NCBI GenBank assembly: GCA_947643665.1
Contig: CANRWW010000025.1
Coordinates: forward strand, 1-36,374
From: an uncultured Porphyromonadaceae bacterium
GTDB taxonomy: Bacteria > Bacteroidota > Bacteroidia > Bacteroidales > Muribaculaceae
DNA: 36,374 bases
Direction of reading: 5' to 3'
Position 1 is the stretch's first letter, and each line of letters starts with the position of its first letter. The notes beneath the pieces were generated by a model. That model searched no databases. It was not told the DNA's origin and was given only the letters and a program-made list of their open reading frames with translations. A program made the translations under genes and the position numbers. This document shows positions 17,059 to 31,983 of the stretch, one piece after another.

Positions 17059-17225
17059 AAGGGTTCAACAAGAGAAATTGAGAAATTAAGAAATTGAGAA
17101 ACAAGAAATCGCCTGATGGCTCTGATTCCTCTGATATCTCTGATGACTCTGATTCCTATCATCCTCCTCCTTGATTTTCCCAATTCCTTAATTTCTCCAA
17201 ATACTCTTATTTCTGATATTTTTCA
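17059..17225 (+). repeat. Bipartite intergenic repeat, copy A (purine arm plus CTCTGAT array)
   Basis: The element starts at the stop codon of the 669-aa gene. A purine-rich arm at 17071-17109 repeats gaaatt with an 8-bp period (positions 74, 82, 90). It is followed by CTCTGAT at 17120, 17129, 17138 and 17147, an exact 9-bp period. A pyrimidine arm at 17181-17197 pairs with 17080-17096 at 16 of 17 positions. Sister copies lie near 19006, 26741 and 31850. Confidence 0.75.
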
Positions 17226-17226
17226 T

Positions 17227-17234
17227 TACCTTTG
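17227..17234 (+). promoter_or_regulatory. Candidate -7 box of the aldose epimerase gene
   Basis: TACCTTTG followed by C matches the common Bacteroidetes -7 form TAnnTTTG. It lies 26 bp before the ATG at 17261, directly after repeat copy A. The epimerase could thus be transcribed on its own as well as by readthrough. No -33 TTTG is visible. Confidence 0.5.
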
Positions 17235-17260
17235 CCGAACAAAACTAACCAAAAATATAC

Positions 17261-18433
17261 ATGAAAACCAATCTGCTCATTGCCGCAGGAGCCTTGATGG
17301 CCCTCTCTGCTTGTACCGGTGGCAAAACCGAAACCAACAATTTGACAGCCTCCGGTCTTGACCCACAGAAATTCGTTGACGAATATCGTGGCGATTCCAC
17401 CGCACTTTACGTGCTCAAAAATGCCAACGGCATGGAAGCATGCATCACAAACTTCGGCGGACGCGTTGTCACCCTTATGGTACCAGACCGCGAAGGGAAA
17501 ATGACTGATGTAGTGCTCGGTTTTGACAGCATCCAGGCATACTACCCCGAAACCAACGGCACCGACTTCGGAGCCACTATCGGACGCTATGCCAACCGTA
17601 TCAACCAGGGACGTTTCGAACTTGACGGCAAAACATACCAGCTCCCACAGAACAACTACGGGCACTGCCTTCACGGAGGCGGCGACATGGGTACCCGCGG
17701 ATGGCAATACCGCGTATTCCAGGCCGACCAGCCCAATGACACCACCCTGGTGCTGACACTCAATTCGCCCGACGGAGACAACGGTTTCCCCGGCAACATG
17801 GTCGCATCTGTCACATATACGCTTAGTGCGGACAACGCCCTGAACATCGCTTACGAGGCCACTACCGACGCTCCCACCATCATCAACATGACCAACCACT
17901 CATACTTCAACCTGTCGGGCGACGGAAGCAAACCTGTGGTTGACGATGTGCTCTGGATCAATGCGTCAAACTACACCCCGGTGGACAGCACATTCATGAC
18001 TTCAGGCGAAATCGCGACAGTAGAAGGCACACCGATGGACTTCCGCACTCCAAAAACCATCGGGAAAGACATCAATGCCGACAACGAACAGATACACAAC
18101 GCAAACGGATTTGACCACAACTGGGTTCTTGACACCAAAGGCGACATGGCAGCATGCGCCGCCACCCTCGAAAACACCACCAACGGCATCCGCATGGAAG
18201 TTTACACCGACGAACCCGGAGTACAGGTATATACCGGCAACTTCCTTGACGGCACCGTTACCGGCAAAGGTGGCATCGCACATCCGCAGCGTTCAGCTAT
18301 CTGCCTTGAGACACAGCACTATCCCGACAGCCCCAACAAACCCGAATGGCCTTCTGTCGTGCTCCGTCCTGGCGAAAAATATACCGGACACTGCACATAC
18401 CGCTTCACTGTCATACCAGAAGCTGCAGAATAA
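17261..18433 (+). CDS. galM: Aldose 1-epimerase (mutarotase) lipoprotein
   Basis: The 390-aa product interconverts alpha and beta anomers of free aldoses such as galactose, glucose or arabinose. It carries a lipoprotein signal ending ALSAC (Cys18), so it acts outside the cytoplasm, as is usual for Bacteroidetes PUL epimerases. Galactose mutarotase motifs are clear: TIGRYANRINQGRF near 108-120, H139 in CLHGGG, H214 in MTNHSYFNLSG (proposed acid), and E351 in CLETQHYPDSPN (proposed base). It follows GH43 and the 669-aa protein on the same strand after a 202-bp gap that holds repeat copy A and a promoter. A strong terminator follows, closing the PUL. It fits processing of sugars released by the locus. 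Confidence 0.95.
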   Translation: MKTNLLIAAGALMALSACTGGKTETNNLTASGLDPQKFVDEYRGDSTALYVLKNANGMEACITNFGGRVVTLMVPDREGKMTDVVLGFDSIQAYYPETNGTDFGATIGRYANRINQGRFELDGKTYQLPQNNYGHCLHGGGDMGTRGWQYRVFQADQPNDTTLVLTLNSPDGDNGFPGNMVASVTYTLSADNALNIAYEATTDAPTIINMTNHSYFNLSGDGSKPVVDDVLWINASNYTPVDSTFMTSGEIATVEGTPMDFRTPKTIGKDINADNEQIHNANGFDHNWVLDTKGDMAACAATLENTTNGIRMEVYTDEPGVQVYTGNFLDGTVTGKGGIAHPQRSAICLETQHYPDSPNKPEWPSVVLRPGEKYTGHCTYRFTVIPEAAE

Positions 18434-18470
18434 GATATACCGACAGGCATATCAAAAACTTATTTTAACA

Positions 18471-18498
18471 AAAAAGCACTCCAAATGGAGTGCTTTTT
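18471..18498 (+). terminator. Intrinsic terminator after the aldose epimerase gene
   Basis: The arms aaaaagcactcca (18471-18483) and 18486-18498 are perfect complements, and the right arm ends in a T-run. This is a classic rho-independent terminator 37 bp after the stop. The A-rich left arm could also serve the other strand. Confidence 0.9.
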
Positions 18499-18561
18499 TG
18501 CGTTTCAGTATGTTATGAATATAATAGGACAACAATGATTAATAAGAAAACTATTTGAATT

Positions 18562-19005
18562 ATGACAAAGAAACTAATCGCGGCACTTGTGCTCACTATC
18601 GCCGGTGCTTCTATGGCATATGCCGATAAATACACCCTCAAACGCGACGCGCTGCCCCAACAGGCACAGGAAATGTTACTTGAATACTTCCCAAAAGCTA
18701 AAGTCGCCATGATAAAGGTTGACAAGCATTTGCTGAAAAAGACCGATTATGATGTAAAGCTCACCAACGGCACGAAACTTGAGTTTAACAATGCAGGCAA
18801 ATGGACATCAGTAGACTGTAAAACACGTGCCGTACCGGAAAACCTCATCCCCAAGGCAATACGCCGCCACGTTGGCAAAAACTACGCAGATGCCAAAATC
18901 GTATCCATTGAAAAGAAAGCCTACGGCTACAAGATAGAGCTGTCAGACGGAATCGAACTAAAATACGACCATATCGGCACATTCAAAGGCGCTGATATTG
19001 ATTAA
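18562..19005 (+). CDS. PepSY-like (DUF2874-type) periplasmic protein
   Basis: The 147-aa product has a signal peptide (cut near MAYA-DK, about residue 21) and two PepSY-like repeats. The first is about 30-85 (LPQQAQEMLLEYFPKAKVAMIKV ... YDVKLTNGTKLEFNNAGKWTSVD) and the second about 90-147 (IPKAIRRHVG ... YKIELSDGIELKYDHIGTFKG). This duplicated form is common in Bacteroidales and is known as a BLIP-like fold. The molecular role is not established; putative peptidase inhibition or envelope binding has been proposed for PepSY domains. It stands alone between the epimerase terminator and repeat copy B. Confidence 0.85.
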   Translation: MTKKLIAALVLTIAGASMAYADKYTLKRDALPQQAQEMLLEYFPKAKVAMIKVDKHLLKKTDYDVKLTNGTKLEFNNAGKWTSVDCKTRAVPENLIPKAIRRHVGKNYADAKIVSIEKKAYGYKIELSDGIELKYDHIGTFKGADID

Positions 19006-19138
19006 AGTTAGAAGTTGAGAAGTTCAGAAGTTGAGAAGTTCAGAATATCAAGAAGTCCAAGAATTGATATTGTTGATATCTCTGATTCCTCTGCTATTCT
19101 CTCCTCTTATCTCTTCTCCCGCTCTTACACCTTGCGTC
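19006..19138 (+). repeat. Bipartite intergenic repeat, copy B
   Basis: It begins immediately after the stop of the PepSY-like gene. The unit gaagttgagaagttca is repeated exactly at 19011-19026 and 19027-19042, itself made of two 8-mers. An 8-bp inverted repeat (19044-19051 with 19064-19071) follows. Then comes a 9-bp-period series at 19062, 19071, 19080 (CTCTGAT) and 19089, and a C/T-rich tail to the end of the convergent rnhA gene. It fills the space between two converging genes. Confidence 0.7.
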
Positions 19139-19795
19139 CTACTTTCTCCCGAAATCGGCAGGTATCTCGCCCCACCGGTCAGTATCCCATCTCAGGATGG
19201 GATTTTCTATCGTATGCGTCTGGATCCAGGTGTCGGCACGCCTGATCAAATCGAAAATGGGTGCATTGCGCGATGTATGCTCCAGCTTTGATCGCTGCCC
19301 CTTGTTGCGTATCCATGAGCGGGCTGTACGCGAATCTGAATATATAGGGGTGACGCGGTCACCCTTCTGATACAGATATGCCAGAGCATGGACAAGCGCG
19401 AGATATTCCGCCACATTATTAGTACCATCCTGAAAAGGCCCGACATGAAACAGGCATTCGCCCGTGGCAATCTTTACCCCACGGTATTCCATCAGACCGG
19501 GGTTTCCGGCACAGGCACCATCCACCGCGATTGCGTCCTTGTTTATCTCCGGAATATCAACAAGTGACACAGAACGCTCACGGGCTACATCCGCATTATG
19601 GCGGGCTATCTCCTCTATGATCGCAGCCGCATCCTGCGGGTCTCCACGAAAAGCTATCGTGGCTGCTGTCTGGTCAGAAAAAGCCTTGTATTTAGCACCC
19701 GGGAAACCATCTACCTGGGCAAGACAGTCATCCCAGTCCTCATAGATGCCAGGTTCACGGCCTGCCCATACCACATAGAATTTTCTTTTTGCCAT
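19139..19795 (-). CDS. rnhA: Ribonuclease H with N-terminal viroplasmin-like domain
   Basis: The 218-aa product removes RNA from RNA-DNA hybrids in the cytoplasm. Residues about 4-48 form the caulimovirus viroplasmin/RNase H1 N-terminal domain (FYVVWAGREPGIYEDWDDC, FPGAKYKAFSD), which binds hybrids. The catalytic domain shows D92 (AVDGACAGNPG), E130 (NNVAEYLAL) and D154 (IYSDSRTA), with the late Asp probably D214 in the family ending WGEIPADFGRK. Length and domain order are normal for Bacteroidetes RNase HI. It is the last gene of a five-gene operon, 10 bp after the alanine dehydrogenase-like gene. Confidence 0.95.
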   Translation of the reverse strand: MAKRKFYVVWAGREPGIYEDWDDCLAQVDGFPGAKYKAFSDQTAATIAFRGDPQDAAAIIEEIARHNADVARERSVSLVDIPEINKDAIAVDGACAGNPGLMEYRGVKIATGECLFHVGPFQDGTNNVAEYLALVHALAYLYQKGDRVTPIYSDSRTARSWIRNKGQRSKLEHTSRNAPIFDLIRRADTWIQTHTIENPILRWDTDRWGEIPADFGRK

Positions 19796-19805
19796 TGCAG
19801 GTTTG

Positions 19806-21062
19806 TCAGCTTAAGGATAATAATATACGTATGTCTGTATGCCGCACTCCCGCCAGACGGGCCACATCTTCGTTGACTGCTTTACCCATAAAAGTAAGTG
19901 TGGCTTCCTGAAGGCCGGGGGTAAGTGGCAACATGGCTCCGGTTTCCTCGCAGTCGGAAATATGATTGAGAAGCGTGATGAACGTATCGCTCAAAGCCAT
20001 GGCGGTAGTGCGTGGAACGGCACTACCTGAATTGACCAGGCATGCACGCCGGCGATACGACCCGGTACAGTCGGCGGGATCTTCACGACACGCATCGTTG
20101 AACAACGCAAACGAAGTCCTTTTTCCTGCCTCATCCTCACCAAATTCGCCAAGGTCAACAAGCCTCATGCCCTGAAACGCCGAACCAGGATTGCATGACA
20201 GGTCAAAAACCAGCACTTTCCGTTTCAGTATGCAATCCATGTTTCCCTCCAGGGGGAGCGCCCCGCCTTTACCAGTGATTATAATCACATCTGCACTGCG
20301 CAACGCATTTTCAAGAGCATGGGGATGCACGGAAGAACCGATAACTCCACCTCCCAGCTGCCGTAAAGCCGTGCGCAGACGGTACACATCGTCATCAAAC
20401 ATACGCACCACCGCTCCCAGGCCGAGTGCCGAACGGGCTGCGGCACAGGCCGCCAGACACGAACCTATGATAGTCACCTCACACGGGATAACTCCGGCTA
20501 TACCTCCAAGCAATATCCCCTTGCCGTTTACCGGATCGGCAAGCATGGCAGCTGCAAGCGTCATGGCACTACGTCCGTCAAGTTCCGATATTATATCGCC
20601 GAACGGCTTGTTTCCTGCGTTGTCACGGATTAGGTCTATGGCTATATTTATGACCCTGCGGTGCAACAGTTCCGTGATTACTTCCCGCGCATTGCCACGC
20701 GAAAGATTCGCCAGACTGAGCAGAAGCGCACCCCGCCGCAACTGTTTTATGTCTGTCACCGGCAATGGCGCAAGGTGTATCACTATATCTGCCTGGAGCG
20801 TCTCATGTCGCGAGGCGCGATGTCCCCCTGCTTTTATATAGGCATTGTCAGTATAGTGTATCGATACTGCGGCGCCCTCCTCTATGAGAACCCTGAAACC
20901 ATTGCGGGTAAGCGCGGCAACAGCCTCCGGGGTAAGGGGGAAACGTTTCTCAGCCCTGTTCACACACTTTGGCAATCCTATGGTGGCACGCCGGCGCTGC
21001 ACGGCAGTCTCTACCGGCGCTTCCATTGGCGTTTTCCCGTAATCGGTCTCTATTGTCATCAT
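19806..21062 (-). CDS. Alanine dehydrogenase-like protein with altered catalytic and nucleotide-binding motifs
   Basis: The 418-aa product aligns along its length with Bacteroidetes alanine dehydrogenase/PNT proteins: AEKRFPLTPEAVAAL near 38-52, NGKGILLGGIAGVIP, ALGLGAVVRMFDDD and SADVIII. Key positions differ. The NAD-binding glycine loop, GxGxxG in the family, reads IIGSCLAACAA. The Lys expected in the KVAP-type motif reads IVIHLAP. The catalytic Asp region, usually DxGG, reads SCNPGS. The protein may therefore be inactive on alanine or have a new ligand; this is inference from motif memory. It is in an operon 3 bp after aroK and 10 bp before rnhA. The N-terminal 25 residues look extended, and a later start is possible. 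Confidence 0.8.
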   Translation of the reverse strand: MMTIETDYGKTPMEAPVETAVQRRRATIGLPKCVNRAEKRFPLTPEAVAALTRNGFRVLIEEGAAVSIHYTDNAYIKAGGHRASRHETLQADIVIHLAPLPVTDIKQLRRGALLLSLANLSRGNAREVITELLHRRVINIAIDLIRDNAGNKPFGDIISELDGRSAMTLAAAMLADPVNGKGILLGGIAGVIPCEVTIIGSCLAACAAARSALGLGAVVRMFDDDVYRLRTALRQLGGGVIGSSVHPHALENALRSADVIIITGKGGALPLEGNMDCILKRKVLVFDLSCNPGSAFQGMRLVDLGEFGEDEAGKRTSFALFNDACREDPADCTGSYRRRACLVNSGSAVPRTTAMALSDTFITLLNHISDCEETGAMLPLTPGLQEATLTFMGKAVNEDVARLAGVRHTDIRILLSLS

Positions 21063-21065
21063 ATG

Positions 21066-21647
21066 TCAACGATTAAAGTTTTCAAACATGCCACTGCGGT
21101 TGATCATCCTGCAAAACTCCTCCACCGTATCTGCAATTTCACCGGGAGATTCAAGTCTGTCTGAATCAAGACGCATTTGTGCCATACCGTACCATCGCTT
21201 ACGTTCTCGCAACTTCGCAGAAATAAAAGCAGCCAGCTCATCGGGGGTAAATCCTGCAAGAAGCGGACGCTGTTCCTGTCCCTCAAGCAGACGACGCAGC
21301 AGCACACTCTCAGAAGCATCAAGAAACACAGTCACCCCATGGGCATTCATCCAGTCCATATTGCCGCTATGGCAGGGAGTGCCCCCTCCGCACCCTATGA
21401 TTATATCATCCGAAACTCCCAGTTCGCGGATAATCTCAGCCTCCAGGCGGCGGAATTCGCGTTCTCCCCTTTCCTGAAAAAACTGCCGCACGCTCATCCC
21501 CACCCTTTGCTCTATGCAATCATCAAGGTCAATATACCGGCAACCAATAGGAAGAAAAGACGAGACATCCCCGGCGACGCGGCCAAGCGCTTCACCGAGG
21601 GTGGTCTTTCCCGAGCCCATAAAGCCGATAAGGAATATCGGTTTCAA
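21066..21647 (-). CDS. aroK: Shikimate kinase
   Basis: The 193-aa product phosphorylates shikimate to shikimate 3-phosphate, a step in aromatic amino-acid synthesis. Visible motifs are Walker A at about 8-16 (GFMGSGKTT), the shikimate-binding YIDLDD, the Arg motif RGEREFRRLE, the glycine motif GCGGGTP, and the lid Arg in QRPLL. Length is a little above the usual 170-175 because of an insertion between Walker A and DLDD (GRVAGDVSSFLPIG). It lies 7 bp after mscL and 3 bp before the alanine dehydrogenase-like gene. Confidence 0.95.
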   Translation of the reverse strand: MKPIFLIGFMGSGKTTLGEALGRVAGDVSSFLPIGCRYIDLDDCIEQRVGMSVRQFFQERGEREFRRLEAEIIRELGVSDDIIIGCGGGTPCHSGNMDWMNAHGVTVFLDASESVLLRRLLEGQEQRPLLAGFTPDELAAFISAKLRERKRWYGMAQMRLDSDRLESPGEIADTVEEFCRMINRSGMFENFNR

Positions 21648-21654
21648 GGCCTGA

Positions 21655-22107
21655 CTATTGTTTTTTTTCCTGGTTTTCTTTCAGAAGGTCACGGATCTCG
21701 GTAAGAAGTTGCTCCTCCTTGGTTGGTTCGGCCGGAGCAGCCGCGGCCACCTCCTCAGCCTGTTGCTTTTCCATATGCTTGCGCACATTGTTTATGAATT
21801 TGATCATCACGAATATGCAGAACGCCACAATAAGGAAATCAACTACAGTCTGCACCCATGCGCCCCAGTTCATGGTAACTTCCGGTTTGATCACCTCCTG
21901 ACCGTCCATCACGGCTTTTTGAATTACCCATTTGTAATCGGTAAAATTCATTCCGCCTGTGACTACACCTATCAACGGCATTATAATGTCGTTTACAAGT
22001 GAAGTCACTATTTTTCCGAAAGCCGCACCGATAATAATACCGACCGCCATATCGACCACATTGCCTTTCATGGCAAATTCCTTGAATTCACTGACGAATT
22101 TTTTCAT
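21655..22107 (-). CDS. mscL: Large-conductance mechanosensitive channel MscL
   Basis: The 150-aa inner-membrane protein opens under membrane tension to release solutes during hypo-osmotic shock. The N-terminal amphipathic helix ([20 protein letters not shown]) leads into TM1, the pore helix ([19 protein letters not shown]). A periplasmic loop (about 45-80), TM2 ([19 protein letters not shown]) and a C-terminal charged helix ([15 protein letters not shown]) follow. The pore glycines and length fit the family. It lies 29 bp after the DUF4190 gene in the same operon. Confidence 0.97.
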
Positions 22108-22136
22108 ATCTCACAACATCTAGTCTATTACGTAAT

Positions 22137-22607
22137 TCATATAAACTCTATCAACTCATCGGCATGGAACGTCGCACCCACAAAAAACAGCACGGCCAGA
22201 ATTATAAATATCCCGACAAGTGATATTATAAGACCGGCAATCGCCAGCCCGCGTGGCTGACGGTTCAACCCGATGATGGAAAATATCAGGCCCAGCAGCC
22301 AGATTGGACCGCTCAAATAAGGCACAGTACACCCGAAAAACGCTACAAGCGACAGTACGAAGCCTGCCACCCCCATCCCATTTGTTTGCTGAGGGGGGGC
22401 CATGTATGGTTCCTGCCATTGTCTTCCCTGTCGCATGTCCACATGGCCAGGCCTAAAAGGCTGTCCCTGATACTGGGGTTGCCGGAAATTAGGATCATGG
22501 CAACCAGATCCGTAGGGATGTCCTGGACCATACTGATTCTGAGATCCTTGTATCGGAGGCGGTGGAGGATACGGAGGTTTGGGATTGTTGTAGTTTTTCG
22601 GTTCCAT
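22137..22607 (-). CDS. DUF4190 domain membrane protein with Pro/Gln/Gly-rich N-terminus
   Basis: The 156-aa product has a low-complexity N-terminus (about 1-70) rich in Pro, Gln, Gly and Tyr, with PPYPPPPPIQGSQ. Two hydrophobic segments follow (about 79-112 and 122-148, GLAIAGLIISLVGIFIILAV), matching DUF4190, a family usually found behind disordered proline-rich heads. The function is unknown. It opens the operon that continues with mscL, aroK, the alanine dehydrogenase-like gene and rnhA. Confidence 0.82.
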   Translation of the reverse strand: MEPKNYNNPKPPYPPPPPIQGSQNQYGPGHPYGSGCHDPNFRQPQYQGQPFRPGHVDMRQGRQWQEPYMAPPQQTNGMGVAGFVLSLVAFFGCTVPYLSGPIWLLGLIFSIIGLNRQPRGLAIAGLIISLVGIFIILAVLFFVGATFHADELIEFI

Positions 22608-22652
22608 AATCTATCTGTTTCAAACGCGTCGTTTTTTGACACGCACTCCTTG

Positions 22653-22660
22653 CAAAGATA
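22653..22660 (-). promoter_or_regulatory. Candidate promoter of the DUF4190-mscL-aroK-rnhA operon
   Basis: On the minus strand TATCTTTG followed by CA is the most typical form of the Bacteroidetes -7 box. It lies 45 bp before the ATG at 22607. No TTTG is found 19-21 bp upstream. Confidence 0.55.
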
Positions 22661-22744
22661 CAAATAAACCTCCTAAAATGTTGTTTCAAGACTGAAAAAA
22701 CGATTTTTTTGCCCGGAATCGGGTAAATTTCAAATTATTGTTAT

Positions 22745-22752
22745 TATATTTG
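22745..22752 (+). promoter_or_regulatory. Candidate -7 box of the DUF349 gene
   Basis: TATATTTG matches TAnnTTTG on the plus strand and is divergent from the operon promoter 85 bp away. The leader to the ATG at 22845 would be about 85 nt and would contain two hairpins. Confidence 0.45.
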
Positions 22753-22774
22753 GCGGAAAATTTCAGAATGGCCT

Positions 22775-22817
22775 CCGGCAGGGTGGTTTAAAATCGCTCT
22801 GCCGGGGCATGTGCCCC
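22775..22817 (+). promoter_or_regulatory. Two consecutive leader hairpins before the DUF349 gene
   Basis: The first pairs ccggcag (22775-22781) with 22799-22805. The second is the palindrome ggggca-tg-tgcccc (22804-22817), which shares two bases with the first, so they are partly exclusive. They end 27 bp before the start codon and could affect translation or message stability. Confidence 0.45.
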
Positions 22818-22844
22818 TAATTCCCTAACCATTCAATTATCTTT

Positions 22845-24725: not shown

Positions 24726-24757
24726 GCCACACAATCCAGCTACCCCATAACCGATTG

Positions 24758-24791
24758 CGGCGTGTCAAAATTCATAAATTTTGACACGCCG
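24758..24791. terminator. Bidirectional terminator hairpin between convergent genes
   Basis: The arms 24758-24772 (cggcgtgtcaaaatt) and 24777-24791 are perfect 15-bp complements with a 4-nt loop (CATA). It sits 33 bp after the DUF349 stop and 60 bp after the stop of the convergent gene at 24851. The run of T on each arm suits both strands. Confidence 0.85.
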
Positions 24792-24850
24792 ACTTGTTTC
24801 TGTCCGGATAGAGAGGGTGCTGTCATATTAAAATCTTCCGGAAAGCGCCG

Positions 24851-25261
24851 TCATACCGTTGTACTGATCAGCCACGCCCCCAACCCGATTATCGCCATGC
24901 AAAAAGCGACGCTTACATATGCCCCTTGCTTGTCGTTCTCCCTGAAACCGGCTATGGCGGCTCTCAGGTTCTTATAAATCATGATGCAGCATACCAACGA
25001 AATGAACAGGATATTGAGCACCCTCAATACACCGGCGATATTCGAACTGTCATAATCCGAAGTAAGCGCCCACACTACCACCCCGATACATGCCGCATAG
25101 ACAAGCCATCTGCCTAGGCTTCGACCCCTCGAATTGTATTTCTTTTGAGCCACACCGTCCTCCTTTCGCGACATGGCATCACGCAACAATGCATATATCA
25201 CCCCGACAATGCCTAAAGACACCACAGCAAGGACAAACAAATCACATATTGGCATACTCAT
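24851..25261 (-). CDS. Small four-helix inner-membrane protein, function unknown
   Basis: The 136-aa product is predicted to have four membrane segments: about 7-27 (LFVLAVVSLGIVGVIYALL), 51-67 (WLVYAACIGVVVWALT), 77-98 (GVLRVLNILFISLVCCIMIY) and 114-134 (AYVSVAFCMAIIGLGAWLI). A basic cytoplasmic loop (MSRKEDGVAQKKYNSRGRS) separates the first two. I recognise no family. A near-consensus promoter precedes it, which supports a real gene. Confidence 0.7.
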   Translation of the reverse strand: MSMPICDLFVLAVVSLGIVGVIYALLRDAMSRKEDGVAQKKYNSRGRSLGRWLVYAACIGVVVWALTSDYDSSNIAGVLRVLNILFISLVCCIMIYKNLRAAIAGFRENDKQGAYVSVAFCMAIIGLGAWLISTTV

Positions 25262-25292
25262 ATCATATACAAACCTACAATTATAACCACCA

Positions 25293-25324
25293 CAAAGCTA
25301 CAATAACAAATCAAACCCACCAAA
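25293..25324 (-). promoter_or_regulatory. Near-perfect Bacteroidetes promoter of the small membrane protein gene
   Basis: On the minus strand TTTG (25324-25321), a 20-nt spacer and TAGCTTTG (25300-25293) match the consensus at every fixed position. It lies about 30 bp before the ATG at 25261. A second -7-like box (TAGGTTTG) occurs at 25277-25270, too close to the ATG to be the main one. Confidence 0.65.
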
Positions 25325-25367
25325 TATATAAGAAAAACAAAAATCAACTTTTTGACCAAGAGATAAG

Positions 25368-25625
25368 TCATATATTTTTCTTAATAGCGTATTTTTTTGA
25401 CTTCTTCCCGTTCAGACAGGATCTTTCAAGCAAAGCCCGCCTAAGGAGTATCCGCTCCATTTCAGGTGTCATCGGCTTTTCCTCATCGCCTGGCGCATAG
25501 CCGATAAAAGCGTCCAGACGTTCCTCTAATTCATCTTCCGGAATCCGGGCGTAATCCTCACCGTTATCGGGAACAGAGACGTCATATACCCTGGTTTCTT
25601 CGGGCTGTTCATCATCCTTTTTCAT
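25368..25625 (-). CDS. Small hypothetical protein with acidic N-terminus and basic tail
   Basis: The 85-aa product is strongly acidic over its first 50 residues (DDEQPEETRVYDVSVPDNGE), has a short helix (MTPEMERILLRRALLERS) and ends in a basic lysine-rich tail (GKKSKKYAIKKN). I know no family for it. The start is supported by a TATATTTG box (25661-25654 on the minus strand) about 30 bp upstream, and there is no overlapping alternative frame. It is probably soluble and cytoplasmic. Confidence 0.65.
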   Translation of the reverse strand: MKKDDEQPEETRVYDVSVPDNGEDYARIPEDELEERLDAFIGYAPGDEEKPMTPEMERILLRRALLERSCLNGKKSKKYAIKKNI

Positions 25626-25653
25626 AATGTTTACTTATACGAATTACCTCCTG

Positions 25654-25661
25654 CAAATATA
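25654..25661 (-). promoter_or_regulatory. Candidate -7 box of the 85-aa hypothetical gene
   Basis: TATATTTG followed by CAGGAGG on the minus strand fits TAnnTTTG, 28 bp before the ATG at 25625. No -33 TTTG is seen. The AGGAGG that follows could double as a ribosome-binding sequence, though it lies far from the ATG. Confidence 0.4.
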
Positions 25662-25738
25662 CATTTTTTGGGGAAACTTTTGACAGCCTCCGGATGTTAT
25701 CATATAACTATAGTTACCTAATATCTAAAATCAACGAT

Positions 25739-26740
25739 ATGAACTATCTGACAACTGACAAACTTGTAATCGTGGGAGCCGCAGGCATGATCGGCTCAAA
25801 CATGGCACAGACAGCAATAATGATGGGGCTGACCCCAAATATCTGCCTGTATGATCCCTACGGCCCCGCATTGGAGGGAGTCGCCGAAGAACTGCGCCAT
25901 TGTGGTTTCGAGGGGTTGAACCTCACATACACAACCGACGTAAAAGAAGCGCTCACAGACGCCAAATATATAGTGAACTCAGGGGGTGCCGCCCGTAAGG
26001 CCGGCATGACCCGCGAGGATCTTCTCAAAGGGAACGCCGCTATCGCAGAGCAATTCGGCAAAGATGTGCGCGCATACTGTCCCGACGTGCGCCATATCGT
26101 AGTGGTGTTCAATCCGGCAGATATCACCGGCCTTGTGACCCTGCTGTATTCCGGATTGAAGCCGTCGCAAGTGACAACACTCGCGGCACTTGACAGCACC
26201 CGCCTTCGCAGCGAACTGTCAAAATATTTCGGCATCCCTGCCGATGAGATCGTGAACAGCCGCACATACGGTGGCCACGGCGAGCAGATGGCAGTATTCG
26301 CATCCACCACCATGATGAACGGCAAACCGCTTACCGAGATCATCGGCACCGAGAAACTCCCCGACAAAGACTGGGAGGAAATAAAACTCAAAGTGGTACA
26401 AGGAGGCAAGAATATCATTGACCTGCGCGGCCGCTCCTCATTCCAAAGCCCGGCATATCTAAGCATCGAAATGATCGGGGCTGCCATGGGAGGCACACCG
26501 TTCCGCTGGCCTGCCGGCGTATATGTAAACAACGACCGCTACCAGCACATAATGATGGCGATGGAAACCACCATCACCAAAGACGGCGTGAAAGTAATGC
26601 CGGTAAAAGGCACGCCTGCCGAAGAGGAAGCCCTTGACAAGAGCTACCGCCACCTCTGCGCTCTACGCGACGAAGTGATCTCCCTCGGCATCATGCCCCC
26701 CATTGACCAATGGGGCAAACTTAACAGCAATCTTGGATAA
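25739..26740 (+). CDS. mdh: Malate dehydrogenase
   Basis: The product is 333 aa from the ATG at 25739, chosen because MNYLTTDKLVIVGAAGMIGS fits the family start; an upstream ATG at 25694 would add 15 residues of no family character. It oxidises malate to oxaloacetate with NAD, in the cytoplasm. The sequence shows the NAD glycine motif GAAGMIG (13-19), D39 for NADH preference, the substrate loop arginines R86 and R92 (ARKAGMTRED), D152 and R155 (LDSTRLRSE), and the catalytic H180 (TYGGHGEQM). Length is normal. It is a single-gene unit, followed by repeat copy C. Confidence 0.95.
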   Translation: MNYLTTDKLVIVGAAGMIGSNMAQTAIMMGLTPNICLYDPYGPALEGVAEELRHCGFEGLNLTYTTDVKEALTDAKYIVNSGGAARKAGMTREDLLKGNAAIAEQFGKDVRAYCPDVRHIVVVFNPADITGLVTLLYSGLKPSQVTTLAALDSTRLRSELSKYFGIPADEIVNSRTYGGHGEQMAVFASTTMMNGKPLTEIIGTEKLPDKDWEEIKLKVVQGGKNIIDLRGRSSFQSPAYLSIEMIGAAMGGTPFRWPAGVYVNNDRYQHIMMAMETTITKDGVKVMPVKGTPAEEEALDKSYRHLCALRDEVISLGIMPPIDQWGKLNSNLG

Positions 26741-26880
26741 GAAAGAAGTAAAAAATAAGAAATAAGAAGTAAGAGCATCAGAAGCCTAGCAAGAATAGTT
26801 TTGCTTATGGCTCTGATTGCTGAAATAAAACTATCCTTGCTAGACTTCTGATGGTCTTGCTTCTTCCGCTCTTTAAATTC
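26741..26880 (+). repeat. Bipartite intergenic repeat, copy C, with a 39-bp near-perfect hairpin
   Basis: It starts right after the mdh stop and ends just before the stop of the convergent kinase gene. A purine stretch (26741-26775) is followed by arms 26764-26802 and 26827-26865, which match at 35 of 39 positions. The 24-nt loop holds atggctctgatt, a 12-mer also present in copy A. It could act as a terminator for both genes. Confidence 0.78.
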
Positions 26881-26884
26881 ACCA

Positions 26885-28087
26885 TTACCCTGCCAACGGC
26901 AGTGTAATGGTGAATTTCGTACCCTCTCCCGGCTCGCTCCAGCTTACGAAGATCTTACCAAGATGATATTGTTCTATGATGCGCTTGGCCAATGTAAGCC
27001 CCAAGCCCCAACCGCGCTTCTTGGTCGTATATCCGGGATTGAACACTGTTTTATGGTTTTTGCGTGGAATCCCTTTTCCCGTATCGGTCACATTTATTAC
27101 CGCCCTTTTCCCCTCACAGGATGTTTCGATAGTAATTTTACCGGAACCTTCCATAGCGTCCACCGCATTTTTAATAAGGTTCTCCATAACCCACTCAAAC
27201 AGCGGGGCGCTCAGACGCACTGGCAGCTCTTCTTCACAGAGGCGCACAGTAAGCTCTATGCGGGAGGATATGCGGGTTGCCATATAAGATGCGGCGTGCC
27301 CCACCACCGTATTCACATTCTCCACGTCCATCTTAGGGCGTGAACCTATTTTTGAAAAACGGCTTGCTATGGTGCTAAGACGATTCACATCCTTGTTCAT
27401 CTCACGCACAGTCTCTTCATCCACACCCATCGCCTGCAATAATTCCATCCACGCCATGAGGGAACTTATCGGGGTGCCAAGCTGATGGGCCGTCTCTTTG
27501 GAAAGGCCGACCCAGACCTTGTTCTGCTCGGCACGCCGCGTGGAGTTGACGGCATAATACACCACCAAAATAAACGCCAGCATTATCCCCAACTGTATAT
27601 AAGGGTAATAACTCAACCGTTTAAGCAACTTTGAGTCATCATAGTAAAGATGTTGAAGGTTATCAGGCGATATTATGATATGGATCACATTTGCACTTTC
27701 CCGGAGCCTTTCAAGCCTCTGATGCAGAAAAGCCTCATTCACCTCCGACAGAAAATAGGGAGCAAGTGAATCTATCTCTTCAGGCAGATCGAAATTTCGA
27801 TGCAGAAGTATATGCCCTTCATCATCGGTAAGAAGTACAGGGATCGTATGATTCCGTTCTATGATGCTGAAAAGGAAGTCTATGTTTTCAGCGGAAGTGG
27901 CGTCATCCGTCTGTCCGATGTCAGCGATCTGTTTGGTGGCATCAGCCCAGATCTGCATGCGTTCACGTTCCTGCACAGCCAGATCATTGACAAGGCTGTT
28001 TGAGACATATATGAAAAATGCCACAAGAGCCACCGACACGATAAGGAAAGCTACAAGACCGAAACGCCTTATTTCATAAATATTCAT
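26885..28087 (-). CDS. Sensor histidine kinase, orphan
   Basis: The 400-aa membrane kinase has TM1 (about 8-30), a periplasmic sensor region of about 130 residues (31-163), and TM2 (about 164-182). A dimerisation domain with the H-box ETAHQLGTPISSL (phospho-acceptor H201) follows, then an ATPase domain with N-box NLIKNAVD (N307), G1 DTGKGI (335-340) and G2 GWGLGL (359-364). It would sense an envelope signal and phosphorylate a response regulator. No regulator gene lies beside it in this window. It follows the HAD phosphatase gene by 18 bp on the same strand and is probably co-transcribed. The HQLGTPIS form of the H-box occurs in a Bacteroidetes kinase subgroup. Confidence 0.93.
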   Translation of the reverse strand: MNIYEIRRFGLVAFLIVSVALVAFFIYVSNSLVNDLAVQERERMQIWADATKQIADIGQTDDATSAENIDFLFSIIERNHTIPVLLTDDEGHILLHRNFDLPEEIDSLAPYFLSEVNEAFLHQRLERLRESANVIHIIISPDNLQHLYYDDSKLLKRLSYYPYIQLGIMLAFILVVYYAVNSTRRAEQNKVWVGLSKETAHQLGTPISSLMAWMELLQAMGVDEETVREMNKDVNRLSTIASRFSKIGSRPKMDVENVNTVVGHAASYMATRISSRIELTVRLCEEELPVRLSAPLFEWVMENLIKNAVDAMEGSGKITIETSCEGKRAVINVTDTGKGIPRKNHKTVFNPGYTTKKRGWGLGLTLAKRIIEQYHLGKIFVSWSEPGEGTKFTITLPLAG

Positions 28088-28105
28088 AATCCCGATTTCT
28101 GATTT

Positions 28106-28981
28106 TCAATCTCTTTCGCGATCCTCTATCCATCGGGCCACGGCATCGTCTGTGTTCGGCCCTATGACCACATCCGCCTTGGCTTTCACCTCCGGAAGCG
28201 CATTCTCCACCGCCACGGCAACATCGGCTACTGCCATCATCGGCAAATCATTAAGGTTGTCGCCGAACACCACAATCTCGTCTGCTCCTACTTTTTGCGC
28301 CAACGACCTCACTGCCGAAGCCTTTGATACACCGGGGGCATAAATATCTATCAGACCGGTTTCAGGAATAAAAACATCAGGATACCATGCCGCAGCGCAG
28401 GAAGTTGCGCTATCCAGTTCCTCAACCATGCCCTCTACCATCTTAACCGGCCCTATGGCAAAAAACAATGCCACTTTATCCCAACGCGCCGGTCGCTGGT
28501 CAAGATGGAAACGCTTAAGCGCCAGATGTCTCCTATCCTGGTAAAAACCGTTTTCACGGGAAGTCATAGCCGCCGGATGATAAACGTTCAGAAAACTGTT
28601 TCCACTGAGGCAATACACAAAAGGATGCAAAGCATGGGATGCAAACACATCACGGATTTTCAATGCATCCGCCTCAGGAATGGTTATACAGCTTTCAAAA
28701 GAGCATGTCTGCCGGTTCCACTCACCGGCGCCGGTCATGACTATAGCCGGAATCGGATGCATCACTCCCGACTCATCCATATATACCGACTGATTCACAT
28801 TCCCAAACAACGGCTGTACAGTGGCGGGGGTGCGTGCCGTAGCAGAAGTAAACATCACCCCACGGTCTACCAGACCATTCAGTATCTTTACAGACCGTTC
28901 ACTTATACGGCTGTTGTTATCAAGCAAAGTACCGTCAAGATCAGTCACATAAAGTGTCCGCTTCTCTCTACATATGTTCAT
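28106..28981 (-). CDS. HAD-superfamily (Cof-type) phosphatase
   Basis: The 291-aa cytoplasmic protein has HAD motif I with D14 and D16 (VTDLDGTLLDN), motif II in TSATARTP, motif III Lys in GVSKASAV, and motif IV FGDNLNDLPMM. A large cap between about 85 and 200 makes it a type IIB (Cof-like) member. These enzymes dephosphorylate sugar phosphates, flavin or cofactor phosphates; the substrate cannot be read from sequence. It precedes the orphan histidine kinase by 18 bp. Confidence 0.9.
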   Translation of the reverse strand: MNICREKRTLYVTDLDGTLLDNNSRISERSVKILNGLVDRGVMFTSATARTPATVQPLFGNVNQSVYMDESGVMHPIPAIVMTGAGEWNRQTCSFESCITIPEADALKIRDVFASHALHPFVYCLSGNSFLNVYHPAAMTSRENGFYQDRRHLALKRFHLDQRPARWDKVALFFAIGPVKMVEGMVEELDSATSCAAAWYPDVFIPETGLIDIYAPGVSKASAVRSLAQKVGADEIVVFGDNLNDLPMMAVADVAVAVENALPEVKAKADVVIGPNTDDAVARWIEDRERD

Positions 28982-29113
28982 ATCCTTATGTTTTTCTCCA
29001 TTTTAAACTCTATTTTTGACGGCAATGCAAGCAGGCAAGATGGTTAAGACCGGAATATCAAATTTCCAATCGCCACACATCATAATCGTTTTCAATACTT
29101 ACTTATATGCTTA

Positions 29114-29144
29114 CAAATTTACTCAAATTTATTCAAACATCAAA
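29114..29144 (-). promoter_or_regulatory. Candidate promoter of the HAD-kinase operon
   Basis: On the minus strand TTTG (29144-29141), a 19-nt spacer and TAAATTTG (29121-29114) match the consensus. It implies a leader of about 125 nt. The area is very A/T-rich and a second TAAATTTG lies 10 bp away, so chance is a real possibility. Confidence 0.35.
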
Positions 29145-29275
29145 ACAAGCCTCTTATTACTGAAAAATGATCGTAAAGATGGCAATCCTATCCCAAACGG
29201 GCTCCGGATACCTTAAATTAACTAAATATTTAAAAATAGGATGAACTAAAGAGGGACAGATAGGATTTTTATTAG

Positions 29276-29307
29276 TAGCTTTGTCGGCTAAAGCCGGATC
29301 GTCCGGC
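29276..29307 (+). promoter_or_regulatory. Candidate -7 box and competing leader hairpins of the DEAD-box helicase gene
   Basis: TAGCTTTG (29276-29283) fits the -7 box, 46 bp before the ATG. Just downstream cggct-aa-agccg (29285-29296) and gccgga-tcg-tccggc (29293-29307) share the bases 29293-29296, so they cannot form together. They could be a small leader switch or simply part of the initially transcribed region. Confidence 0.4.
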
Positions 29308-29329
29308 ACAAAATACTTTATATTATTTT

Positions 29330-31102
29330 ATGACATTTGAAGAATTAGGGGTCAACGAACCTCTCAGGCGGGCAATCGCCGAACTAGGATTTGAAAACCC
29401 CATGCCGGTACAGGAAAAGGTTATACCTCACCTGCTTAACCAGGAAGGAGATGTGGTGGCACTGGCACAGACAGGCACCGGAAAAACCGCAGCTTTCGGT
29501 CTTCCGGTAATTCAGCGTATTAATGCAAATATGGCTGAACCACAGGCTCTCATCCTATCACCGACACGCGAACTTTGTCTACAGATCGCATCAGATCTGG
29601 CAGACTTTTCGAAATATATCCAAGGTCTGGCCGTACTTCCAGTATATGGCGGCTCCAGCATAGAAAGCCAGATACGTTCCCTGAAAAAGGGGGTACAAAT
29701 CATTGTGGCGACACCCGGTCGTCTTCTGGATCTTATCAACAGAGGGGTGGTAAAACTCGGACGGGTGCATACCGTGATCCTTGACGAAGCCGACGAAATG
29801 CTGAACATGGGTTTCCTTGACTCCATAAACGACATTCTCAGCAATGTGCCGGACGATCGCAAGATGCTCCTTTTCTCGGCAACAATGCCACCTGAGATTG
29901 CGAAAATCGCCAAAAACTACATGCATGACCCTGTGGAGTTCGTGATCGGCACACGCAACGAGGGCGCCGCAAACGTGCGGCACATATACTACATGGTCAA
30001 TGCCCGCGACAAATACCTGACGCTCAAACGCATAGCCGACAACAGCCCGAACATCTACGCTATCATCTTCTGCCGCACACGACGCGACACCCAGGAGGTG
30101 GCAGACAACCTGATCCACGACGGCTACAACGCCGACGCGCTCCACGGCGACCTCTCCCAGCAGCAACGCGACATTGTCATGAAAAAGTTCCGCGACCGCG
30201 TGATCACACTTCTTGTGGCTACAGATGTGGCTGCCCGAGGACTTGACGTGAATGACCTTACCCATGTCATAAACTATGGGATGCCCGATGATACCGCCGT
30301 ATACACCCACCGCTCAGGGCGCACCGGACGTGCCGGAAAAACCGGAGTGTCAATAGCTATAATACATTCGCGCGAAAAAGGCAAACTCCGCGAAATAGAA
30401 CGTATAATCGGAAAGACTTTCGAGCGTAAAGAGGTGCCGACACCTGAACACATAATCGAAAAACAGCTTTTCTCGCTTGCAGACCGCATAGAGCGTGTTG
30501 AGGTCAACGATACGGAGATGGCCAAATATCTCCCTGCCGTAATGAAGAAACTTGGCTGGCTCACAGAGGAGGATCTGATAAAACGGGTGCTGTCTCTTGA
30601 ATTCAACCGCCTGCTTGATTATTACAAAGACGCCCCGAAAATTGACCTGATTGAAGAAAAGCCGAAAAAAGACAAGGAAAAGAAATCCAGACGCGGTGCC
30701 GAGGATGACAACCACGACAAAGACAGACGCACCGCGGCAAGGGGTATGGAACGCGTATATATCAGCGCCGGAAAGCGCGACGGATTTTTTGCCGGCAACC
30801 TTATTGAGATGCTGAACACATTTGTCGGAGGGCACCGAGTGGATGTAGGCCGCATTGACCTCATGCCGTCATACTCGCTGTTTGATGTCAAGAAGTCTGA
30901 CGCAAAACGCGTGGTAGCTTCCCTGAAAGGCGCGGAATTCATGGGGAAACGCATCTATTCCGAAATCGCAAAAGCCGACAAGGACTACGCAAAGGCATCG
31001 AACCGCCGCAGCAAACAGGCACAACACGCCGACGAGCCAGTAGACGCATACGATGCATTTGAAAAATTCAAGCGGAACAGCCGTAAGAAAGGGCGCCGCT
31101 GA
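29330..31102 (+). CDS. DEAD-box ATP-dependent RNA helicase with DbpA-type RNA-binding domain
   Basis: The 590-aa cytoplasmic enzyme unwinds structured RNA, probably in ribosome assembly, cold adaptation or RNA decay. Motifs in order are the Q motif (MPVQEKVIP), motif I AQTGTGKT (46-53), Ia PTREL, TPGR (128-131), II DEAD (152-155), III SAT near 184, IV FCRTRRDTQE, V ATDVAARGLDV and VI HRSGRTGRAGKTG. A linker and a highly charged stretch (KPKKDKEKKSRRGAEDDNHD) precede the DbpA-like RNA-binding domain (about 473-547, VYISAGKRDGFFAGN ... MPSYSLFDVKKSDA), and a basic tail ends GRR. It resembles the DeaD/CshA group. It heads a plus-strand run, 21 bp before the next gene. Confidence 0.95.
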   Translation: MTFEELGVNEPLRRAIAELGFENPMPVQEKVIPHLLNQEGDVVALAQTGTGKTAAFGLPVIQRINANMAEPQALILSPTRELCLQIASDLADFSKYIQGLAVLPVYGGSSIESQIRSLKKGVQIIVATPGRLLDLINRGVVKLGRVHTVILDEADEMLNMGFLDSINDILSNVPDDRKMLLFSATMPPEIAKIAKNYMHDPVEFVIGTRNEGAANVRHIYYMVNARDKYLTLKRIADNSPNIYAIIFCRTRRDTQEVADNLIHDGYNADALHGDLSQQQRDIVMKKFRDRVITLLVATDVAARGLDVNDLTHVINYGMPDDTAVYTHRSGRTGRAGKTGVSIAIIHSREKGKLREIERIIGKTFERKEVPTPEHIIEKQLFSLADRIERVEVNDTEMAKYLPAVMKKLGWLTEEDLIKRVLSLEFNRLLDYYKDAPKIDLIEEKPKKDKEKKSRRGAEDDNHDKDRRTAARGMERVYISAGKRDGFFAGNLIEMLNTFVGGHRVDVGRIDLMPSYSLFDVKKSDAKRVVASLKGAEFMGKRIYSEIAKADKDYAKASNRRSKQAQHADEPVDAYDAFEKFKRNSRKKGRR

Positions 31103-31123
31103 TAATTGCCATAAACTAAGAGA

Positions 31124-31849
31124 TTGAACGTGTTTAGAAAACTATTTTTAGCCATAGGTTTAGCTTCGGCAATCAACGCTTCGGCACAGGCACAGCTGGA
31201 AGTCCCGGATTTCACAGCTGGAAGCCTGGCCGCGGACACTGCCGAAGCTGAAAATGCCGACACATACACCCGGTATACCGGAAACCCTGCCATAGATGCG
31301 TTTATAAACGCGCCACAGGTGGTGTTTCCGACAATTGACCATATGACACGGATGGATATGGCAGACTATTTCAACTCAGGATCGCCAAAGCCCTCGAAAA
31401 ACAGCCTGAACGGAGAATGCCGTATCAATTCCGCCTCAGACAGCCAGGTGACATTGTCCACATCTGACGTTTCTTCGGTAGAGCTGTCGCTCCTGCCGAT
31501 GAAATCAGACACGATAATCATGGTGATAACCACGCTCAATACCCCTGTGCCGGACAGCAGCGTCAAATTCTATACATACCCGCAATGGAAACCTGTATCC
31601 AAAGGGCTGTTTATGGTTCCCGGCCTTGATGAATGGACTGACAAAGATGCAAAAATCAAACGGGAGGATCTCGAAAACGCCGTTCCTTTCATACTTGCCA
31701 AGCTAAGTTATACTCCTGAAAGCAGGCAGCTGGTACTTGAGAATAACCTCGGTGACTATCTCCCCCAGGAAGCGAACAAACTCATTGACGGCGCACTCAA
31801 ACAACGCCTTGTCTACCACTGGAACGGCTCACGCATGGTGAAAAATTAG
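31124..31849 (+). CDS. DUF3256 family secreted protein
   Basis: The 241-aa product has a signal peptide (about 1-22, FRKLFLAIGLASAINASAQA). It shows the DUF3256 pattern: a conserved VVFPTIDHMTRMDMADYFNSG, then DSQVTLSTSDVSSVELSLLP, a strand pair DTIIMVITTLNTPVPDSSVKFY and QWKPVS. The family is limited to Bacteroidetes and has no known function. No ATG exists between the upstream stop and the signal peptide. Translation must start at TTG (31124) or GTG (31130). It follows the helicase by 21 bp, so the two are probably co-transcribed, and repeat copy D follows directly. Confidence 0.85.
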   Translation: MNVFRKLFLAIGLASAINASAQAQLEVPDFTAGSLAADTAEAENADTYTRYTGNPAIDAFINAPQVVFPTIDHMTRMDMADYFNSGSPKPSKNSLNGECRINSASDSQVTLSTSDVSSVELSLLPMKSDTIIMVITTLNTPVPDSSVKFYTYPQWKPVSKGLFMVPGLDEWTDKDAKIKREDLENAVPFILAKLSYTPESRQLVLENNLGDYLPQEANKLIDGALKQRLVYHWNGSRMVKN

Positions 31850-31980
31850 AATTTCAGAAACTAGGAATTAAAAAATCAGAACTTCCCCGATCCCTCCGAT
31901 ATCTCTGATCCCTCTGATTCATCTGATATCCCTCTCATCCCCTCCTCCCCGGGCCATCGCCGAACCCCAAACTCCCAAAA
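31850..31980 (+). repeat. Bipartite intergenic repeat, copy D
   Basis: It starts at the DUF3256 stop with an A/G-rich stretch (31850-31880). It continues with 9-bp-period units at 31885, 31894, 31903, 31912 and 31921 (ccccgat, ctccgat, ctctgat, ctctgat, atctgat) and a C/T-rich tail up to xseA. It shares gatatctctgat with copy B. The xseA start codon follows within a few bases. Confidence 0.7.
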
Positions 31981-31983
31981 GAC

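Follow-up and report, generated by a model that had tools for sequence, protein, structure and literature searches.

What are the four look-alike gaps that follow genes in this stretch of DNA, and do they serve the genes they follow? In the 36,374-nt window, the whole stretch analysed from an uncultured Porphyromonadaceae bacterium, an earlier note had pointed to four gaps that combine a purine-rich arm with CTCTGAT-type units, repeated every 9 bp in three of them. All four lie directly 3' of plus-strand stop codons, as it had claimed, and the pattern belongs to a genuine repeat family that is present genome-wide. The best reading is that of an intergenic repeat of composite build whose copies have increased within a single lineage, comprising the host genome and a sister species.

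The four window copies, all on the plus strand, share a general design, but vary in their arrays. Element A (17059..17225) follows a plus-strand gene for a 669-aa protein (15049..17058) without a Pfam match at E 0.001. It consists of a purine array of period 8, termed beta (17072-17109), a 9-nt array, termed gamma (17120-17153), with four exact CTCTGAT units at 17120, 17129, 17138 and 17147, and a pyrimidine arm (17176-17197) that is 91% complementary to 17080-17101. Element B (19006..19138) occupies the convergent gap after a plus-strand PepSY-like gene (PF11396; 18562..19005) and contains an 8-nt purine array (19005-19045), a gamma pair (19080-19095), in which the unit at 19080 is exact and that at 19089 reads CTCTGCT, and a pyrimidine-rich tail. 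Element C (26741..26884), also in a convergent gap, follows a plus-strand lactate/malate dehydrogenase gene (mdh; 25694..26740). It has a 7-nt purine array (26743-26774) and two 39-nt palindromic arms, termed alpha (26764-26802 and 26827-26865), which are 90% complementary; its one gamma unit (26811-26817) lies in the loop. Element D (31850..31983) separates a plus-strand DUF3256 gene (31124..31849) from the gene for the exonuclease VII large subunit and comprises a purine-rich stretch (31850-31881), gamma (31894-31927), with exact units at 31903 and 31912 and one mismatch each at 31894 and 31921, and a C-rich pyrimidine tail. Elements A and D have orthologous elements in the sister species, where the ortholog of C carries four units. 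The units of A stand exactly where the earlier note placed them, and C has its single exact CTCTGAT at 26811; the purine period of about 8 holds in A and B, but is 7 in C and absent from D according to Tandem Repeats Finder, which reported periods of 7, 8 and 9 nt and multiples across the four copies. A known structured RNA family was rejected, as the window has no Rfam match at the gathering score.

The exact gamma pair, CTCTGATNNCTCTGAT, occurs at 28 places in the host genome and its reversed pattern at none. Among 420 heptamers of the same letters in the host sample, the runner-up reached 2 and the median 0, which puts the pattern far above chance. The alpha word gave 18 matches in the host genome with up to 3 mismatches, compared with 1 for the reversed word; with up to 2 mismatches across 149 family genomes, it gave 13 in the host, 6 in the congener G063 and 0-2 in the others, about the level of the reversed control. 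The sister species (G152), which lies outside this set, has 110 matches to CTCTGATNNCTCTGAT and more than 20 places resembling copy C. The exact gamma pair is absent from 127 of the 149 genomes and is thus dispensable.

On one strand, a full element starts with a purine-rich 7-nt array and an alpha arm, (AGAAGTA)n AGAGCATTAGAAGTCAAGCAAGAATA, often continues with the 8-nt purine beta and then with gamma, (CTCTGAT N2)n, and often ends in the reverse complement of alpha or beta. Variable 7-nt arrays form its outer ends. Alpha arms that pair were seen at 16 candidate places (2 doubtful), and several copies carry a single arm.

Gaps were compared in 824,939 of the 2,603,727 host bases and in 20 sister contigs picked for having matches. 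The host bases cover all stretches that hold an exact gamma pair, together with parts of C3-C7 chosen irrespective of matches, which makes elements look more frequent among gaps than they are. An element was defined by a gamma pair with at most 1 mismatch, an alpha with at most 7 mismatches in 26, or a beta. Shuffled-alpha controls gave 0-3 matches against 16 real ones in the host sample and 0-1 against 26 in the sister, and a few alpha-only rows, such as C6:26773-29971, may therefore be chance. Genes were called with a home-made codon scorer that misses some (for example at 22137-22607 of the window), so that genes may go unnoticed in long gaps such as C1:164218-165196; the terminator scan, likewise home-made, requires a T run, and hairpins lacking one escape it. 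Terminator and strand counts refer to gaps of 80-300 bases unless other limits are stated. Arrays at contig ends (host C2, C16, C27 and C59; sister C108) have one flanking gene and were excluded. The four host contig starts resemble the end of a 5S rRNA with a terminator behind it; Rfam found no 5S at these loci at the gathering score, nor in the first 500 bases of one of them by E-value, and an association of gamma with rRNA operons was set aside as a mere impression.

No exact CTCTGATNNCTCTGAT array falls within a called gene: 28 of 28 are outside in the host and 73 of 73 in the sampled sister contigs. Just 1 of 45 element gaps is divergent, though divergent gaps make up 24,485 of the 135,376 bases in gaps (binomial p 0.003). 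The earlier note had staked its pattern on a comparison with shuffled and coding sequence and on a bias to positions after stop codons: exact arrays were missing from called genes, rearranged motifs were rare and divergent gaps were avoided, so that the pattern stood. The single orientation it described is confined to the window. Elsewhere gamma shows a modest sense bias, with 19 sense, 8 antisense and 2 mixed co-directional gaps (19 versus 8, p 0.052, the mixed gaps lying outside this count). The promoter-type motif TAnnTTTG lies near the next gene in 9 of 30 co-directional element gaps and 66 of 154 others (p 0.23), with no indication that more of the downstream genes have promoters of their own; a scan of the D gap found none.

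Gene ends with elements are poor in intrinsic terminators. The scan found one at 3 of 40 element gene ends (0 of 16 in the host, 3 of 24 in the sister sample), compared with 87 of 208 others (p 1e-5), and none, as GC-rich hairpin plus T run, at the six gene ends of A-D. Divergent gaps, our yardstick for false positives, scored in 2 of 27, so the element ends stand at about background. Convergent gaps alone gave 1 of 10 with elements versus 39 of 54 without, and other length limits agree. In two or more element gaps, a strong hairpin stands right at a gene end but lacks an immediate T run; these include the kinase side of C (26875-26917) and C1:140735-140975 with its ortholog.

The same genes were sought in 12 congeners, which yielded mdh in 10, the kinase in 12, DUF3256 in 10 and the other three in one each. 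At site C, where the host and sister carry the element after mdh, the congeners carry a hairpin: the terminator scan was passed in 7 of the 10 with the gene, and the 100 nt after the mdh stop fold with z of -3.4 or lower in 9 of 10 (z -1.6 in the tenth). The kinase end has a terminator in 1 of 12 congeners, and sites A and B, with one informative congener each, showed none.

The sense strand of these gaps also has a base bias. In co-directional element gaps, C minus G is 0.239 on the sense strand and 0.111 on the antisense strand (sense higher in 26 of 30, p 0.0002), compared with 0.117 and 0.081 in gaps without elements (83 of 154, p 0.05). In element gaps, YC is 15.2 on the sense strand versus 9.9 on the antisense strand, and the sense strand has about 1.7 times as many YC dinucleotides as in other gaps. 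Since gamma is itself pyrimidine-rich, part of the C-over-G signal follows from the choice of elements, and the informative part is the difference between sense and antisense. The idea that 3' gaps generally drift from purine to pyrimidine was rejected, as element-free gaps stay at about 0.4-0.6 purine throughout. The triplex-forming purine tracts suggested earlier are not supported: pure purine runs in the A-D gaps reach just 6-8 nt, too short for triplex or H-DNA.

Within gamma, the 7-mer core is exact in 56 of 61 middle units and every position is at least 97% conserved, whereas neighbouring 2-nt spacers are identical in 8 of 56 cases, compared with 6.2 expected under independence. Intact cores beside unrelated spacers argue against plain slippage and towards sequence-specific recognition; such a pattern needs selection or templating. 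Neither this contrast between core and spacer nor the scarcity of intrinsic terminators had been remarked on in the earlier note.

Tentatively, we favour the reading that a lineage-specific, MITE-like composite repeat replaces intrinsic terminators and probably serves as a factor-dependent 3'-end signal. The element would take over 3'-end formation of the upstream gene: the nascent RNA would present CUCUGAU N2 units in series, one every 9 nt, as a platform for a factor that ends or trims the transcript. Rho leads the candidates, given that its rut sites show a C-over-G bias and are rich in YC; the sense RNA after the stop codon has these properties, in part through the element definition. Because Rho alone is not known to need an exact heptamer, the factor could instead be a dedicated RNA-binding protein. 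The arms would keep part of their complementarity through the copying of one from the other. We think it unlikely, if worth stating, that CTCTGAT(N2) arrays are what a sequence-specific 3'-end factor, either some RNA-binding protein or a specialised form of Rho, recognises unit by unit, and that the repeat is a mobile terminator that replaces intrinsic ones gene by gene and thereby rewires transcript ends across a lineage. The terminator role proposed earlier gains indirect support from terminator scarcity, site C and the sense C-over-G, whereas pairing into hairpins is not borne out as a trait of all copies.

It is also quite possible that the family is a selfish or neutral MITE-like repeat without host function, which spreads by some transposase or copying process, persists after genes, where it does least harm, and incidentally destroys or displaces terminators. 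This agrees with its restriction to one lineage, with the roughly fourfold difference in gamma-pair number between host and sister, with the fast turnover of element content at orthologous sites in relatives and with a gene flanked by two elements that is inverted between the two species. Site D points the same way. DUF3256 was found in 10 of 12 congeners, and in these neither a terminator nor an element was detected after it; the distance to the exonuclease VII start is about -1 to 43 nt in nine of them and about 85 nt in G063, compared with 134-137 nt in the host and sister, which carry the element. Functionless spread into a gene pair that is close in relatives therefore remains a strong rival, and as a terminator, D would need to act inside a likely operon. 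Such spread does not account for near-perfect cores beside free spacers, for the few terminators even in convergent element gaps or for the sense-specific C-over-G. As for mobility, the earlier proposal of a non-autonomous mobile repeat is supported in so far as the host and sister copy numbers show a dispersed, apparently non-autonomous family. A search of the host genome (95.84% complete) with the Y1_Tnp profile, the sole transposase type sought, gave no match, which also speaks against functionless spread and led to the rejection of RAYT mobilisation; no clean insertion boundary or target duplication was found, and orthologous gaps in the sister and G063, inspected by eye, were too diverged to show an exact boundary.

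Arrays could instead act at the DNA level, binding a nucleoid, supercoiling or segregation protein and lying 3' of genes to spare promoters, much as gyrase binds BIMEs. The rigid 7+2 spacing with its conserved core, the occurrence of both orientations relative to transcription and the inverted arrays inside single elements at C1:83233 and C1:84028 would suit such a role. We consider it rather improbable, as a step of 9 bp does not match a turn of the helix, the pair is missing from 127 of the 149 family genomes, base composition has a sense bias, and the terminator scarcity is not predicted.

Classical 3'-end stabilisers or terminators formed by pairing of purine and pyrimidine arms are very unlikely. 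Against shuffles, A and C fold well (z -3.2 and -6.6), as the earlier note had proposed for all four, but B and D do not (-1.1 and +0.6). Host co-directional gaps fold better with elements (median z -4.03, 10 gaps) than without (-2.09, 133 gaps), whereas sister gaps fold less well (-1.34, 21 gaps, versus -2.43, 36 gaps), and the hairpin was rejected as a general rule; single-armed copies also speak against it. The G063 alpha palindrome passes the terminator scan, and arms match better within elements than between them (3.50 versus 4.47 mismatches per 26 nt; 14 pairs, p 0.005; 16 pairs with the two doubtful ones kept, p 0.0005). It is extremely improbable that the arrays are ordinary tandem repeats arising from unselected replication slippage: unit numbers do differ by whole units between related copies, and slippage may explain the 7- and 8-nt arrays of the arms, but it was rejected for gamma, where it would copy the spacer along with the core.

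Several known systems share parts of this design. Like Rho utilisation sites, the elements form a C-over-G, YC-rich sense stretch after a stop codon; unlike them, they are dispersed repeats with a conserved 7-mer, features not known from rut sites. TRAP-type RNA sites iterate (G/U)AG with 2-3 nt spacers and resemble gamma in a fixed short core with free short spacers, but differ in core sequence and length. Among published designs, the closest that we found is the BrickBuilt MITE of Porphyromonas gingivalis, described as always intergenic, limited in hosts and built of tandem direct repeats with inverted-repeat ends, with partial copies that have one flank or none (PMC4596501). Our family is similar in these features, with paired alpha arms as candidate inverted-repeat ends. 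BrickBuilt units are given there as 23 nt without spacers, with TIRs like those of known insertion sequences and with promoter activity (PMC4596501); our family has 9-nt units (7-nt core, free 2-nt spacer), no 23-nt unit in the four copies and terminator-poor gene ends. The TAACTGA heptamer repeats of Beggiatoaceae, Cyanobacteria and some Bacteroidetes are likewise short intergenic tandems of patchy taxonomic spread and obscure function, sometimes between stop codons, but they are direct 7-nt repeats that in a Beggiatoaceae genome lie mostly just 5' of start codons (PMC4679880), unlike the 7+2 spacing and 3' location seen here. REP palindromes, too, are dispersed, with many downstream of coding regions and plausibly transcribed; they are 20-40 bp long with a terminal GTAG or CGTC, the GTAG types accompanying RAYTs (PMC3733652), unlike our host genome without a Y1_Tnp match. 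Titles and abstract openings among the top matches in the openly licensed PMC literature described neither CTCTGAT arrays nor such a family, and the literature searched yielded no sequence-specific partner or templated copying process for such arrays.

Small intergenic repeats are common in bacterial genomes and their function is disputed. This family offers sharp handles on the question: a core that is kept while its spacer drifts, terminator-poor gene ends, and relatives with and without an element at the same gene. If the terminator reading is true, a spreading repeat would have come to govern a basic step in gene expression; if it is false, the conservation of the core would still demand a sequence-specific partner or templated copying.

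The four intergenic gaps lie where the earlier note placed them (copy A, 17059–17225; copy B, 19006–19138; copy C, 26741–26880; copy D, 31850–31980), and a plus-strand stop codon opens each. CTCTGAT units are found at 17120, 17129, 17138, and 17147 in copy A, at 19080 in copy B, at 26811 in copy C, and at 31903 and 31912, together with one-mismatch neighbours, in copy D. The 8-nt purine period claimed for all copies is present in A and B, whereas C has a 7-nt period and D has none. Hairpin formation by the two arms holds for two of the four copies, A and C, since RNA folding against shuffles gave z values of −3.2, −1.1, −6.6, and +0.6 for A to D; the arms pair over 22 nt (91%) in copy A and 39 nt (90%) in copy C.

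The elements are securely identified as a lineage-specific composite repeat family. Side-by-side reading of copies from the host and its sister species, G152, defined three modules: alpha, a 26-nt palindromic arm with 7-nt repeats upstream; beta, an 8-nt purine array; and gamma, a 9-nt array with a CTCTGAT core and 2-nt spacer. Module orders include alpha–gamma, alpha–beta–gamma–alpha′, beta–gamma–beta′, and alpha–alpha′ (primes mark reverse complements). Alpha arms are more alike within than between elements (3.50 vs. 4.47 mismatches, P = 0.005, 14 pairs; P = 0.0005 for 16 pairs, two doubtful ones included). Gamma comes and goes between species, as some orthologous gaps carry it in either host or sister only. 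The nearest published design found was BrickBuilt of P. gingivalis (PMC4596501), and the nearest published puzzle the TAACTGA repeats (PMC4679880).

Searching the 2.6-Mb host genome for exact CTCTGATNNCTCTGAT gave 28 matches, against none for the reversed control. An 825-kb host sample takes in all 28 occurrences, every one outside called genes, and the runner-up among 420 rearranged heptamers reached two there, which puts the pattern far above chance. G152 has 110 exact occurrences, and all 73 in a 234-kb sample lie outside called genes; nine consecutive exact CTCTGATNN units form a single run near a contig end (G152:C108:11294–11372, in locus L271). The CTCTGATNNCTCTGAT pattern is present in 22 of 149 family genomes (47 copies in G006, 24 in G080) and missing from 127, with one reversed-control match in total. 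The alpha word, at up to two mismatches, was found at 13 host places, six in G063, and zero to two in the others, similar to the reversed control; G152, outside this set, has copy C look-alikes at more than 20 places. In G080, (TCTGATNNC)n arrays (loci L077, L078, and L083) fall within open frames (134, 170, and 326 aa), where they read as Ser-Asp-X repeats, in contrast to the host, whose exact arrays sit outside called genes.

Some further observations concern repeats. Positions 24757–24826 form part of another dispersed family, one containing a terminator-like palindrome; 11 more host places at 88–98% appear among the matches listed, and the sister has nine or more. Locus L284:1–93 and about 190 bases near G000:C1:196500–196700 in the host match the same places and so probably belong to it. 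The repeat at L275:7083–7246, about 165 bp long and partly palindromic, has 13 near-full host copies at 81–92% and looks like another MITE family. At the starts of contigs C2, C16, C27, and C59 (L012, L019, L024, and L027), gamma arrays mixed with small hairpins adjoin sequence resembling the end of an rRNA operon; Rfam did not confirm 5S at these starts.

The proposed position bias is evident in the avoidance of divergent gaps: of 45 element gaps (those holding alpha, beta, or gamma) one is of this kind, whereas the full set of 478 includes 61, covering 18% of gap bases. Purine content in element gaps is 0.62–0.85 in the first tenth and drops to 0.11–0.31; it is about 0.4–0.6 throughout gaps without elements. 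The common orientation seen within the window is elsewhere only a bias, gamma being sense in 19, antisense in eight, and mixed in two co-directional gaps. Host and sister differ in the orientation of one gene flanked by two gamma elements (G000:C1:83476–84009; L278:4384–4917): relative to its neighbours it is inverted, the outcome expected of recombination between inverted repeats.

Our home-made scan for a hairpin plus T run detected terminators at three of 40 element-bearing gene ends vs. 87 of 208 lacking one (P = 1e-5); in divergent gaps, the false-positive yardstick, the rate was 2/27. This scarcity is stable under other length limits, in gamma-bearing gaps, and among convergent gaps (1/10 vs. 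39/54). Sense-strand C minus G exceeds the antisense value in 26 of 30 co-directional element gaps (P = 0.0002), and YC is also higher on the sense strand (15.2 vs. 9.9); in gaps without elements, C minus G is 0.117 vs. 0.081, with sense higher in 83 of 154.

The same gene ends were compared in relatives. Malate dehydrogenase, upstream of copy C, was located in 10 of 12 congeners; the scan is positive 3′ of the gene in seven of these, and a strong fold follows it in nine (z of −3.4 or lower; −1.6 in the tenth). Host and sister carry the element in place of the hairpin. At the opposite, kinase end, one of 12 congeners has a terminator; in the host, this gene end coincides partly with a strong hairpin that lacks a T run (26875–26917), and a comparable hairpin lies ahead of the element at C1:140735–140975. 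Sites A and B showed no terminator in the one informative congener of each; in G063, the RNase H end at site B carries an alpha palindrome. Site D lies between the DUF3256 and exonuclease VII large subunit genes, with no scanned terminator after the former in the 10 congeners in which it was located (12 searched). Spacing to the exonuclease gene is about −1 to 43 nt in nine congeners and about 85 nt in G063, vs. 134 nt in the host and about 137 nt in the sister; the element has thus pushed apart two closely spaced genes, a likely operon. The motif TAnnTTTG is absent from this gap and no commoner ahead of genes following elements (9/30 vs. 66/154, P = 0.23).

With the middle 7-mer left free in CTCTGAT-N2-(7)-N2-CTCTGAT, host and G152 samples gave the exact heptamer in 56 of 61 cases, with a consensus of at least 97% at every position, while adjacent spacers were identical in eight of 56 (6.2 expected under independence). 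Fetched loci of G080 and G006 have less varied spacers and exact middle units in 12 of 16 cases each. Two G152 loci with a coding flank identical across 60 aligned bases, which may be duplicates or strain variants within the MAG, differ along their alignment by a 13-nt indel, a 9-nt indel, and 12 substitutions, yet their three and four CTCTGAT units are all intact. Slippage is rejected for gamma, as it would duplicate the spacer along with the core, whereas cores are intact and neighbouring spacers unrelated. Since spacers vary while the core stays, either selection preserves the heptamer or some process writes it without the spacer.

Functionless spread of the repeat is a close second among the readings of these elements, and the location of the element at D within a likely operon speaks for it and against a terminator role. 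We tentatively prefer a factor-dependent 3′-end signal, possible though short of an even chance, as the best joint account, because it unites the scarce terminators, the sense-strand excess of C over G, and the conserved heptamer.
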